Origin: Opitutales bacterium
GTDB taxonomy: Bacteria; Verrucomicrobiota; Verrucomicrobiia; Opitutales; JABSRG01
NCBI GenBank assembly: GCA_028280845.1
Contig: JANQKZ010000003.1
Span: 1 to 55,474 of the forward strand
Length of the DNA: 55,474 bases
Reading direction: 5' to 3'
Below the pieces are notes generated by a model. It ran no database searches, was not told where the DNA came from, and saw only the letters and a list, made by a program, of their open reading frames with translations. Positions 27,529-32,278 of the stretch are shown here, piece by piece (position 1 is the first letter of the stretch; each line of letters begins with the position of its first letter). Position numbers and translations under genes: made by a program.

Positions 27529-28443
27529 CTAAACCTTAAACCGCTCCGCCCAATCCGCGGCGGCCAGAACCGAGTTCGCATGGATCCTTGCCGTCATATG
27601 GCGTTCCCGGTTATACCCACCTCCGTAAACCACCGCCGTCGGGATCTGGTGCCGCGCCAGAATACCCAACACCAGGTCATCGCGCTCCCGAATCCCCCCA
27701 AGGGTCAGCTGAAGCTGGCCAAAACGGTCATCCTTATGCACGTCGGCCCCGCTGATCCAGATGACAACATCCGGCTCGGCCTGGAGCACCGCTGGTTCGA
27801 GGGTCTGCTCCAGGGCCTCCAGGTAAGCGTCCTCGCTGGCATAACGCGGCAGGCCCACATCGACATCCCCAGGCTCTTTTTTCGAGGGAAAGTTCTTCGC
27901 CACATGAATCGAGTAGGTGAACACCATGGGATCTCCGCGAAAAAAGGCATGGGTAGCGTTACCCTGGTGCGCATCCGTATCAACAACCATAAAGGTGAGT
28001 TCAGGGTACCTCGCCTGAAGGTGCCGGATCGCTATAGGACCATCATTGAATACACAAAACCCCTGGCCTCGGTCGGGAAAGGCATGGTGGGTGCCCCCTG
28101 CCAGATTACAGGCAATTCCATCGTCAAGCGCAGCCTCCAGCGCCTGGACCGTTCCTCCCGCGCCGTATCGGGATCGATCATACAATCGAGGATGCGCCGG
28201 TAAGCCCAATCGGTTACGCGCATACCTGGATAAACCATGGCTCCGAACCTGCTCCTGGTATTGGCGGGCGTGGACCCGGTCCAGCATCGCCTCAGAAACT
28301 GGGATCGTCGGCACGATCTCTGCCCGCCCCGTCTGGACCAGCTCCGCCTCCACCAGGGCCGCCGCCTCCGGGAACTTGTACATGGGAAAGGGGTGCTCCG
28401 GAGGGAGGGGAAAATAATATTCAGGATGGTAAAAGCACCGCAT
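27529..28443 (-). CDS. Histone-deacetylase-fold amidohydrolase
   Basis: A 304-residue member of the arginase/deacetylase fold. Zn-site and catalytic motifs: LAGGTHHAFPDRGQGFCVFN (HH pair), VVDTDAHQGN (Asp and His ligands) and SGADVHKDDRFG (Asp ligand), then GGGYNRE. Closest in feel to the class IV (HDAC11-like) bacterial proteins, which remove acyl groups from small molecules or proteins. Substrate unknown. Divergent from the nucleosidase at 28509. Confidence 0.88.
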   Translation of the reverse strand: MRCFYHPEYYFPLPPEHPFPMYKFPEAAALVEAELVQTGRAEIVPTIPVSEAMLDRVHARQYQEQVRSHGLSRYARNRLGLPAHPRLYDRSRYGAGGTVQALEAALDDGIACNLAGGTHHAFPDRGQGFCVFNDGPIAIRHLQARYPELTFMVVDTDAHQGNATHAFFRGDPMVFTYSIHVAKNFPSKKEPGDVDVGLPRYASEDAYLEALEQTLEPAVLQAEPDVVIWISGADVHKDDRFGQLQLTLGGIRERDDLVLGILARHQIPTAVVYGGGYNRERHMTARIHANSVLAAADWAERFKV

Positions 28444-28508
28444 GCGCCTTTCTTTACAAAGGTGAGAAACTAAAAGATTTCAAACCCCACGTGAGTCCCC
28501 TGTCCTCC

Positions 28509-29369
28509 ATGCCCACCGGCGCATCCCAGATATTGTTCGTCACCGCCTTGCCCGCGGAGACAAAACCCCTGGTCCAGCACTTTGGGCTGAAGCGGCAAAC
28601 CCAAACGGGCAAATTTGTCTCTTTTTCCAATGCTAAGGGCCTGGCCCTCGTTCAAACCGGGGTGGGACGGATCCCCGCTGCAGTGGCCACCACTTACGCC
28701 CTGCAAACCCTCACCGGATCGGTTCAGGTCATCAACCTCGGGCTGGCCGGATGCCGGGACGCAGATACCCCCATCGGGTCGATCTTTCGTGTGAATAAAA
28801 TTCATGAGCTCAACACCGGCCGCACCTTTTTCCTCGATATGCTGACCAGGGGGTCGTTACCCGAAACCGGCTGTATCACGGCCGACCAGCCCGTGGATGT
28901 CTGGCCGGATACCACCATGGAGGATGAAACCCTCTGCGACATGGAGGCCTCGGCCGTGCTGCAAGCGGCGCGTCAACTTGGACCAGCCGACCATTTCCAT
29001 TGTCTGAAAGTGGTCTCAGACTATGGACTATCCGGTGGCCCCAAGTGGATGGCGGAATGGGTTGAGTCCCTCCTGCAACCCCATCTTTCTGTCCTGGAAT
29101 CCCTGGTTGAACAACTGGCCCTCCTCGAGGAGCCCGCCACCTCAACTCTCAGCCCGGATGAGGATCATCTCCTTAAGGAACTGATTGAATATGCTCGACT
29201 CACCACCACCCAGGCCAACCAGTTGAAAACCACCATGGTGAGAGCTAGCCTCAGAGGGCTGGAGCTCCCGCCCCTGCTCACTCAAACCCTTGCCAACCCC
29301 GCTCCTCAGCATGCCCGCGATCGAAAAGCCTGGCTCACTCGCCTCCGGTCCCTCCTCCTGGAATCCTGA
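28509..29369 (+). CDS. Nucleoside phosphorylase/MTA-SAH nucleosidase-like protein
   Basis: A 286-residue protein. The N-terminal two thirds have the PNP/MTAN fold: ILFVTALPAETKPLV, LALVQTGVGRIPAAVA, VINLGLAGC, and a DMEASA motif matching the nucleoside-binding DMES/A signature with its catalytic Asp-type region near VVSDYG. The last 80 residues are helical and not part of the basic fold. It overlaps the SPL-like gene by 59 bases in another frame, which points to tight coupling. Start: ATG at 28509 rather than the GTG 18 bases upstream. Confidence 0.78.
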   Translation: MPTGASQILFVTALPAETKPLVQHFGLKRQTQTGKFVSFSNAKGLALVQTGVGRIPAAVATTYALQTLTGSVQVINLGLAGCRDADTPIGSIFRVNKIHELNTGRTFFLDMLTRGSLPETGCITADQPVDVWPDTTMEDETLCDMEASAVLQAARQLGPADHFHCLKVVSDYGLSGGPKWMAEWVESLLQPHLSVLESLVEQLALLEEPATSTLSPDEDHLLKELIEYARLTTTQANQLKTTMVRASLRGLELPPLLTQTLANPAPQHARDRKAWLTRLRSLLLES

Positions 29370-30366
29370 CTTTTCCCACCTGTATATTGAAGAGGGGGCC
29401 CGGGAATATCCCCTCACAGACATGGTGCGAAAGCGCTTTCCTGAAGCGACCATCGTTTGGGTCAAAGACTACCGCCATTTCTTCAACCGCCCTGGCCAAC
29501 GCTTCCAGGTCCAGAAACATAGCATGAAGTTAGTCCTGGCAGTCAAAAAGGATGGCTATATTTATGACGGCAGTGAAAACGCCCAGGATTTCGGCGTATC
29601 CAATTTTTATTACACCACCCCGCTCATCAATTGCATCTACAATTGTGATTATTGCTTTCTTCAGGGCATGTATCCCTCGGCAAACCTGGTGCTTTATGTA
29701 AATCAGGAGGACCTTCAGGAGGCGGTTAAACAGGTAGCCCGACACCCGCCAGACCCCAAGCAACCCCTCCTCCTGGCAGTCTCCTATAACACAGACCTCC
29801 TCGCCTTTGAAAAGGTGGCCCCACTCGCCAGTTCGTGGATCGACGCGACCCGGGACATCCCCCGGTTCCTCATGGAAATCCGGACCAAAAGCGCCAATTT
29901 CCGGGTCCTGGCCGACCTGGAACCCAGCTCCAACACCATCCTGGCCTGGACCCTCTCCCCTCAGGAGGTCATTCGCCCATACGAGAAAGGAACACCCCCG
30001 CTCAGCGCTCGCCTGAACGCCGCCGCAAAAGCCGCCCAGGCGGGATGGAAACTCCGTCTGTGCTTCGACCCGGTACTGAAAATCCCAAATTGGGAATCCG
30101 TTTATCCGGAGTTTATAAACCAGGTCTTCACCGCCATACCAGCCAGCCAAGTAACCGATATCACCATCGGCGCCTTCCGTATGTCGGCCTCCTATTTCAA
30201 AACCATTAAGCGACAACGCGCCGATTCAGACCTGTTCTTCGACGACTACTCCCACCAGGATGGCCTCGTGCGCTACAAAGATCCAGACCAGCAGGCCCTC
30301 GTCGACACCGTTTATTCCCTCTGCAAAGCCCACCTCCCCAAAGACCGCATCGATATCTGGCTATGA
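29311..30366 (+). CDS. Spore-photoproduct-lyase-like radical SAM protein
   Basis: A 351-residue radical SAM enzyme. The cluster motif CIYNCDYC (Cys108, 112, 115) and following FLQGMYPSANLVLYVN match SplB (CxxxCxxCYLQ...YVN), as does the N-terminal LYIEEGAREYPL. SplB reverses UV-induced spore photoproduct in spore DNA. By remembered alignment the H-donor Cys141 of Bacillus SplB corresponds to Tyr159 here (VSYNTD against SCTSD), so the reaction may differ. No spore-forming relatives are expected. The ATG at 29311 is chosen over a TTG at 29290; either overlaps the nucleosidase gene. Confidence 0.8.
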   Translation: MPAIEKPGSLASGPSSWNPDFSHLYIEEGAREYPLTDMVRKRFPEATIVWVKDYRHFFNRPGQRFQVQKHSMKLVLAVKKDGYIYDGSENAQDFGVSNFYYTTPLINCIYNCDYCFLQGMYPSANLVLYVNQEDLQEAVKQVARHPPDPKQPLLLAVSYNTDLLAFEKVAPLASSWIDATRDIPRFLMEIRTKSANFRVLADLEPSSNTILAWTLSPQEVIRPYEKGTPPLSARLNAAAKAAQAGWKLRLCFDPVLKIPNWESVYPEFINQVFTAIPASQVTDITIGAFRMSASYFKTIKRQRADSDLFFDDYSHQDGLVRYKDPDQQALVDTVYSLCKAHLPKDRIDIWL

Positions 30367-30961
30367 CCCCCTCTCTCCCTCTTTATCTTACTCTCATACG
30401 TAGATACAACTCGAATGCCATTTTCAGAATGACTCTAAAAAAAAGCCCGCTCCCACAGAAGGACAAAGAAGAAGACCCGGTAAGCCCGTAGGGCCCGACC
30501 CTGGTCGCGACCTCATGGAATACCCAAAACCCATCCTCGGCTCTCCATTTCTAACTTACTTCCGTCGAGGCTAGGCGACGGGGCCTAAAAGGTAAAGATT
30601 GCACAGAAGATTCATGGCAGGCCCGAGCGATTGGTCCCGTTGCCTATGCCGACTGGTTCGTATCTCTGTAGTTCGTCCAGGCACCGAAACCAAGGCCAGA
30701 GGCAATCCGAACTTTCTTTCTTTTAAACTACGGAAAACGCGGAAAGACACAGAATCCCAATTCCATGTCCTTCTGTGCATTCCGTAGTGGATCTCATTCG
30801 TTATCCTTCCTTCTTTTTGACCACCCGCTGCGCTGGAGTTCACGGAGGTCAGGAAGATTTTCCAGCTCTTTGTTCTCAGTGCTCTCCGGGGTACGTCTTT
30901 CTTTTTCCCGCGAACAGTTCGTTTTTGCAATTAACTGCAAAACCTGTCAGCGAATGATCCA
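30367..30961. other. Long intergenic region with dispersed repeats
   Basis: About 600 bases without a supported gene. It contains a REP-like piece (AAGCCCGCTCCCACAGAA, 30443-30460), the palindrome GGTCGCGACC (30503-30512) and the interrupted inverted repeat at 30728-30787. The rest is unassigned. Confidence 0.5.
30728..30787. repeat. Interrupted inverted repeat CTACGGAA...CACAGAA
   Basis: CTACGGAA (30728-30735) and CACAGAA (30748-30754) are matched by TTCTGTG (30771-30777) and TTCCGTAG (30780-30787). This is a nested pair typical of dispersed intergenic repeats found in many environmental genomes. Confidence 0.5.
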
Positions 30962-32278
30962 ATGGATTGTGCTGTAGTAACAGGAGCCGACAACACGGCG
31001 GGAGAGGCGATTGCCAGGAAGCTCGTCAACATGGGGTACCGGGTATACGGACTCGGTCAATTTACCAAAGCACCGGAATGGGAGCATCGACAATTTCACC
31101 CCGTGGGGTGCGATCTCACCCAGCCCCAAAACGTTTCCGATGCCCTGGAGGGGATCACGAGCCAGCGCAATTTAATTTCCGTGTTCGTCCACGCCGCTGT
31201 CTACACACCGGTTGACAAAGAGGACCAATCCTTTGAATCCTCCTCCCCGGGAGCAATTGATGCCGCGTTCCGCATCCATTTGCTTTGCCCGGTCCAGATC
31301 AGTCGCCAGTTGCTCCCCTCACTCCGGGTAACCAAGGGCCACCTCATCATTGTGGCCCCTCATCCGCCCGCCACCCTCGCCGCGCACCCGGCCCTGGCTG
31401 CAGCTGCGGCCGGGCTCCAGCAGTTTGGAGAGTCGTTTTTTGATGAAGTTCGCGAAGAGGGGATAAAATTGACCACCTTGTACCCCCGCCCCAACGATCC
31501 CCGCTTCCTCCAACGACGAAAGTCAGTCCTCAAACGATCCGATGTCCTCGACCCGGACCAATTCGCCCAGGCCGCCGAGCACGTCCTCCGGGAAGCCAAC
31601 TTCGGCAACGTCATCACCGAGCTGGTCGTCCGCCCACAAACGAGCGACTCAAAGAACCAGATTCCCGATACGCATATCAAGCTGGATGCCTACAGCGAAA
31701 TTCAGCTGCCCCCGCCCCAGCATTTTCCTCCCGAGCCCGTACCCTTGATCATCCCTCAACCGCCTCCTTTCGAACGCAAGGAGACTGAGCGGCCAGACAA
31801 CAATAAAAGCCGGTCACGGCGCCGCCGTCGAAATCGCAATCGTCAGCGCCAGGATCAGGACCTCACTCCGGATAAACCGGAAAATCGGGAGCTCCAACCC
31901 AAACACTCCCCACGGCCAGACCCAAAGGACAAGGAAGCTCCCGCAGGAGATAAGCCGGAGAAAAAGCGGGACAACCGTTCCCGGAACCGCGGACAGCCTG
32001 CTAAGCCAAAAGTCGAACCGGTCGTAAAAACAGAAGAGGCTCCCATCCAGGTAACCCGGCAGCCGGAACCCACGCCGGCGATGGAGCCAAAACCTGCTCC
32101 AAAAAAGAAAACCATCGCGAAGAAAAAGACGGTTCCCAAAAAGAAGACGGCCGTCGCCAAAACGAAAACCGCAGCTAAGAAAAAAGCGGCAGCCAAGAAG
32201 AAAACAGCCCCGAAAAAGAAGGCCGTGGCGAAGAAAAAAGCCGTCGCCAAAAAGAAAACGACCGCCAAAAAGAAGTGA
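30962..32278 (+). CDS. Probably inactive SDR-fold protein with histone-H1-like tail
   Basis: A 438-residue protein. Residues 1-215 are a Rossmann-type short-chain dehydrogenase: TGADNTAGEAIARKL (7-21) binds NAD(P), and HAAVYTP (77-83) replaces the usual NNAG. The Ser, Tyr and Lys catalytic positions appear lost (VAPHPPATLAAHPALAAAAAG, 131-151). After a proline-rich linker come SRSRRRRRNRNRQRQ (about 281-296) and a tail of repeated KKK-ala/thr/val units (about 375-438), like histone H1 or AlgP tails that bind nucleic acid. A nucleotide-sensing, DNA- or RNA-binding protein is plausible. Low-complexity tails can also arise by simple repeat expansion. Confidence 0.8.
   Translation: MDCAVVTGADNTAGEAIARKLVNMGYRVYGLGQFTKAPEWEHRQFHPVGCDLTQPQNVSDALEGITSQRNLISVFVHAAVYTPVDKEDQSFESSSPGAIDAAFRIHLLCPVQISRQLLPSLRVTKGHLIIVAPHPPATLAAHPALAAAAAGLQQFGESFFDEVREEGIKLTTLYPRPNDPRFLQRRKSVLKRSDVLDPDQFAQAAEHVLREANFGNVITELVVRPQTSDSKNQIPDTHIKLDAYSEIQLPPPQHFPPEPVPLIIPQPPPFERKETERPDNNKSRSRRRRRNRNRQRQDQDLTPDKPENRELQPKHSPRPDPKDKEAPAGDKPEKKRDNRSRNRGQPAKPKVEPVVKTEEAPIQVTRQPEPTPAMEPKPAPKKKTIAKKKTVPKKKTAVAKTKTAAKKKAAAKKKTAPKKKAVAKKKAVAKKKTTAKKK

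Follow-up and report, generated by a model that had tools for sequence, protein, structure and literature searches.

An Opitutales family of SDR-fold proteins without the catalytic residues and with a long H1-like basic tail

In Pseudomonas, PhaF and AlgP combine a folded N-terminal part, which is a phasin in PhaF and a putative alpha-helical domain in AlgP, with a long disordered Lys/Ala/Pro tail, and both have been proposed to act as tethers: DNA binding has been seen for AlgP fragments and for KPAA peptides, and the tail of PhaF is believed to anchor granules to the nucleoid (PMC9239181). Lysine-rich repeats also act in DNA binding in actinobacterial TopA and HupS/HupB and in chlamydial HC2, where they stand on a topoisomerase, on an HU domain or on nothing, not on an SDR fold; such repeats stabilise TopA on DNA (PMC7398561), and the lysine-rich tail of Streptomyces HupS is deacetylated by a Sir2-type enzyme (PMC11229371). 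The SDR fold itself serves regulation or scaffolding in NmrA, HSCARG, MAT2B and MRPP2/HSD17B10. Regulation by NmrA, HSCARG and perhaps MAT2B works through contacts (PMC3793261), and MRPP2/HSD17B10 supports a tRNA methyltransferase that has no direct need of its NAD site or catalytic residues (PMC6102140). These proteins bind NAD(P), MAT2B and HSD17B10 retain catalytic residues or activity, and none has been described with an H1-like tail.

Here we analysed a stretch of 55,474 nucleotides from Opitutales bacterium (contig JANQKZ010000003.1 of assembly GCA_028280845.1, the whole stretch hereafter called the window), which encodes an SDR-fold protein with a tail of this kind (Table 1). A regulatory or scaffolding role like that of the SDR proteins above is what we infer for its family. 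The family shares with PhaF and AlgP the plan of a folded N-terminal part followed by a long disordered tail, but the N-terminal part is an SDR, and the repeats are KKKxxA-like and accompanied by a separate Arg cluster, whereas those of PhaF and AlgP are KPAA; homology between the two kinds of tail is not established. As far as the literature covered shows, most subscription journals lying outside that coverage, this SDR-tail fusion is an undescribed variant of a regulatory or dead SDR with an H1-like tail, and it is coherent across the order.

Table 1. Features of the tailed SDR, its neighbours in the window and the MiaB loci of relatives
Feature	Residues	Position	Strand	Evidence or remark
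Tailed SDR CDS	1-438	30962..32278	+	Intact ORF, 438 aa, ATG start; orthologues with the same architecture
SDR (Rossmann) domain	1-229	30962..31648	+	PF00106, AlphaFold2, Foldseek, dN/dS
Degenerate glycine loop TGADNTAG	7-14	30980..31003	+	Alignment to SDRs
Former YxxxK site PALAAAAAGLQQF	143-155	31388..31426	+	Tyr position Leu145, Lys position Ala149
Pro-rich linker DAYSEIQLPPPQHFPPEPVPLIIPQPPPFERKE	242-274	31685..31783	+	Counterpart of DPYxEVVLPPxxYCPPEQPKIPT in relatives
Arg cluster KSRSRRRRRNRNRQRQ	282-297	31805..31852	+	Weak predicted helix 281-298 (AlphaFold2)
Lys/Ala KKK-repeat tail	376-438	32087..32275	+	H1-like composition; pLDDT <50
SPL-like radical-SAM gene		29290..30366	+	PF20903, E=3.8e-21
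PNP_UDP_1 nucleosidase-like gene, same cluster		28491..29369	+	PF01048, E=1.4e-10; gene order as in relatives
HDAC-family gene		27529-28443	-	PF00850, E=1.9e-50
MiaB loci in relatives		L068:5563-6954; L131; L021:5225-6658

The window protein belongs to the SDR superfamily by both fold and homology. PF00106 (adh_short) matched residues 3-179 above its cut-off (E=5.1e-14), and in the AlphaFold2 model, which was built on a 31-row alignment, the SDR core had a pLDDT mostly >90 (about 95), and the tail mostly <50 to 65. The best Foldseek match of the model was 3rkr, an NADP-bound metagenomic SDR (E=9.5e-14), which the family profile also retrieved by sequence (E=1.3e-28); because this alignment reaches the C-terminal SDR strand, which reads ITELVVRPQ and ends at residue 226 in the window protein, the tail is a true addition. 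Relative to classical SDRs, of which 3rkr is the nearest solved one, the fold, the order of secondary-structure elements, the first and third Gly of the loop and the beta-3 Asp are the same, whereas the tailed family is without the catalytic Ser/Tyr/Lys, the NNAG motif and the NADP Arg, and a long basic tail follows the last strand. Alignment to SDRs with an intact site placed His106, Pro133, Leu145 and Ala149 of the window protein at the positions of the catalytic Asn, Ser, Tyr and Lys, and HAAV at that of NNAG, which agrees with a sequence-only reading that had described an apparently inactive SDR with its Ser/Tyr/Lys positions and NNAG lost. The same reading had called the Rossmann loop kept, and this stood in part: the first and last Gly of TGxxxGxG are present, but the middle Gly is replaced by Thr, and the Arg after beta-2, the NADP-type determinant of active relatives, is gone.

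The tail (residues 230-438, 209 residues) is predicted to be disordered. It contains 44 Lys and 18 Arg (K+R 62) against 10 Asp and 14 Glu (D+E 24), together with 33 Pro, and has a pI of 10.6 vs 6.1 for the domain. The Arg cluster and the KKK repeats noticed at first sight of the sequence are both present, and composition, pI and a pLDDT below 50 make the tail a long disordered Lys/Ala-rich C-terminus of the H1-like type. A second model (L059) was of lower confidence and was consulted solely for the position of the predicted tail helix. No Pfam family matched the window protein's tail, HC2 (PF07382) included; the best HC2 score among the tails of relatives was 29.8 bits vs a cut-off of 40, and a search of HC2 over the protein's own genome gave nothing above the cut-off. 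An aspartate-semialdehyde dehydrogenase-like protein of the same genome (G000 contig C55, L133:1222-2355) has a similar AAKKK tail end, and since a K-rich tail thus occurs on an unrelated enzyme of that genome, the tail alone is weak evidence. In another genome, G037, a small protein adjoining the tailed SDR (L009:2991-3536) also has a tail end, KKAxPAKK.

A single-sequence search of the genome contigs gave no relatives, and an alignment-based search recovered them. By hand count from the lists, relatives were present in 73 of the 273 sampled Opitutales genomes and in nine of the 28 families, the 73 comprising 69 genomes at E<=1.7e-37 and 4 from one divergent family, in which the tails were inspected directly. 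Relatives with the same anatomy were found in 12 of the nearest genomes besides the window genome, and relatives also occurred in named contigs of Opitutales, Puniceicoccaceae and Coraliomargarita. In the phylum sample of 387 genomes, strong matches (E<=1.7e-37) fell exclusively within Opitutales; the weaker matches outside the order sit in open frames of ~235-370 aa, as expected of ordinary SDRs. Orthologues share the N-terminal start MD[VI]A[IV]VTGA with the window protein, and the modules almost always follow one another in the same order, namely SDR core, Pro-rich linker, Arg cluster and K/A repeats. The tail measures ~160-530 aa in complete members (about 100 to 530 overall), L031 being a short exception. 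Of 45 members, 44 have an Arg cluster and 41 a tail of net positive charge; the four tails that are not net positive belong to L030 and L031, which are truncated or short, and to L023 and L024, which together with L022 have long, mixed-charge and near-neutral tails. The fusion first read from a single protein therefore recurs in nine Opitutales families, with the tail in most homologues. In one marine relative (L065:3803-5373) the frame is split, with 53 aa followed by a stop and two frames matching, and in G064 a TGA lies within the tailed-SDR match; each may reflect decay or an assembly error.

Selection was estimated on close pairs of relatives. The domain gave dN/dS values of 0.03-0.18 in 13 pairs, some of them with high dS, and the tail gave 0.13-0.45 in 12 pairs, one pair not being computable and the low-complexity alignment making the tail figure a rough one. 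The dead SDR domain is thus under strong purifying selection and is not decaying, and the tail is under weaker selection. A chance low-complexity ORF is ruled out, because orthologues and purifying selection exist. A phage origin was not supported either: a search of viral contigs for the tailed SDR found none carrying the family, and synteny is conserved. That the tail might be a neutral low-complexity extension, produced by repeat slippage and without function of its own, would fit its variable length (~100 to 530 aa), its low sequence identity and the similar tails on unrelated proteins; we nevertheless regard this as extremely unlikely, as the module order and the Arg cluster persist across families in 44 of 45 members and the tail dN/dS, rough as it is, lies below 1.

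The loss of the catalytic residues extends over the whole family. Among 54 tailed members, the catalytic Tyr and Lys were found together in none, and the single survivors, a Tyr in L008 and a Lys in L053, belong to different members. At the Tyr position N, G, F, P, A, S, T, L, Y and D all occur, and conservation across the domain is lowest in the loop that runs up to the former active site. In the marine group, Asn and Glu consistently substitute Tyr and Lys, so that a different chemistry is conceivable there, and the strong purifying selection on the fold would likewise be compatible with a protein that is still an enzyme, its active site having moved or its activity being other than redox. 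This seems quite improbable to us, given that the former-site residues are not conserved family-wide and that the loop next to them varies most; nor was an alternative active site seen that is conserved across the family.

Conservation is highest in the beta1-loop, beta2 and beta3 segments. The first Gly of the loop is retained in 54/54 members, the second in 7/54 and the third in 53/54, the beta-3 Asp is kept in 42/54, and the Arg after beta-2, present in active relatives, is kept in 1/54. The conservation of these segments makes a ligand site of changed specificity possible, and it is also what would be seen in an NAD(P)- or nucleotide-sensing regulator of the NmrA/HSCARG kind, whose domain would bind a (di)nucleotide and whose ligand state would alter binding by the tail; NAD(P)-sensing SDR regulators do exist in NmrA, HSCARG and perhaps MAT2B. 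Such a sensor is rather unlikely here, as the Arg after beta-2 is lost in 53 of 54 members, the second Gly in 47 and the nicotinamide-ribose-binding Lys of YxxxK in 53, NNAG is not retained, and the N-terminal half may be conserved for structural reasons. NAD(P) sensing as originally suggested for the window protein is not upheld, its determinants being eroded.

The origin of the family could be traced through relatives that lack the tail. Three tailless proteins with an intact active site were found: L037, from a Sedimentisphaerales MAG (Planctomycetota), and one protein each on G021 contig C147 and G084 contig C176. They keep all scored positions but two: the PG-motif Gly is Asp in 3/3, and the second NNAG Asn is replaced by Ala in 2. 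All three sit in a nucleosidase - SPL-like - SDR cluster. Genome G021 holds both the tailless, active-looking copy and, elsewhere, a tailed copy. In the IQ-TREE phylogeny the tailed proteins formed one group with support of 100/96, and the three active forms were placed between this group and 18 generic SDRs; several end branches are long, that of the window protein included, and its own place in the tree is therefore unsure. The tailed clade has a single origin within Opitutales. As tailless active relatives stand in the same cluster just outside this clade, the findings indicate that an enzyme became a tailed pseudoenzyme, and the simplest reading is that an active tailless ancestor in the cluster gave rise once to the tailed inactive form. 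The idea of an inactive SDR fused to a nucleic-acid-type tail accordingly holds for the family at large, with the tail in nearly all members, one origin and purifying selection.

The neighbours of the tailed SDR were then compared among genomes. Judged from coordinates, 14 genomes have the SPL-like gene immediately upstream of the tailed SDR, the two frames usually overlapping by a few bases or else almost touching; in the window a gap of 595 bp (30367-30961) separates them, and the gap stretch (591 bp), searched in the genome as a dispersed repeat, was present in a single copy. In marine lineages the SPL neighbour is absent and the other shared neighbours are retained. The SPL-like protein of the window retains CxxxCxxC. 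Aligned to a solved SPL, it carries a Tyr (SYNTD; SY[ND]TD in relatives) at what we take to be the position of the H-atom-donor Cys, and it scored 74.8 bits against the SPL equivalog, whose cut-off is 400; with a score so far below the cut-off, the gene probably does not encode a genuine spore photoproduct lyase. MiaB, a radical-SAM tRNA methylthiotransferase, is encoded by the next gene downstream of the tailed SDR in some families and by one a few kb further on in others; in the window genome there is no such adjacency, MiaB lying on other contigs, and the SPL and MiaB neighbours are missing from many relatives. In the radical-SAM families to which SPL-like proteins and MiaB belong, the known members act on nucleic acids, which points weakly the same way as the tail does.

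An HDAC-family gene is located ~2.5 kb from the tailed SDR in the window and adjoins it in four genomes of one family and in G270. Adjacency of the two as a general rule was rejected, since a hand count found it in 6 of ~13 genomes with both genes, four of them from one family; with the HDAC gene not near in several genomes that have both, it is a lead only. A pseudoenzyme accessory factor that would bring the SPL-like protein or MiaB to DNA or RNA through the tail, with lysines regulated by the HDAC encoded nearby in three families, is very unlikely in our judgement.

SDRs are usually oligomeric. The reading that we favour, and to which we give about an even chance, is that the family is a lineage-specific pseudoenzyme acting as a non-catalytic adaptor, tethered by its tail to a polyanion, most likely nucleic acid. 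An NADP-type SDR of the nucleosidase / SPL-like cluster gave rise to an Opitutales clade without catalytic residues and with a long basic tail; the folded domain would now be a binding or scaffold module for a protein or small ligand, perhaps an oligomer and perhaps one whose ligand pocket has changed in specificity, and the disordered Arg/Lys tail would tether it electrostatically and multivalently to the polyanion, most likely nucleoid DNA or RNA. The net role would be that of an adaptor, as proposed for PhaF and AlgP, and not that of an oxidoreductase. An association with chromatin or RNA is suggested by the composition of the tail and by analogy with published tails. A tail that binds polyphosphate granules, or another polyanion, instead of nucleic acid is kept open by AlgP, whose H1-like tail links it to polyphosphate: AlgP associates with such granules and gives them an even spacing, and they are perturbed when its tail is lost. 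We consider this alternative to the nucleic-acid adaptor distinctly unlikely; no polyphosphate gene was seen adjoining family members, and the present data do not discriminate among polyanions.

Collectively, these results describe a traceable case in which an enzyme became a pseudoenzyme with a polycationic tail, and because active-looking tailless relatives persist in the same cluster, and genome G021 carries one such relative as well as a tailed copy, the transition is directly testable. Automatic annotation would label the family as oxidoreductases, which the sequence evidence contradicts. Were the accessory-factor reading true, the family would be a bacterial counterpart of histone-tail control, derived from a metabolic enzyme that is now dead. 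Should the tail bind DNA or RNA, the nucleoid or RNA adaptors of bacteria would gain an SDR-based class, from an order that has been little studied and has marine lineages among its members.
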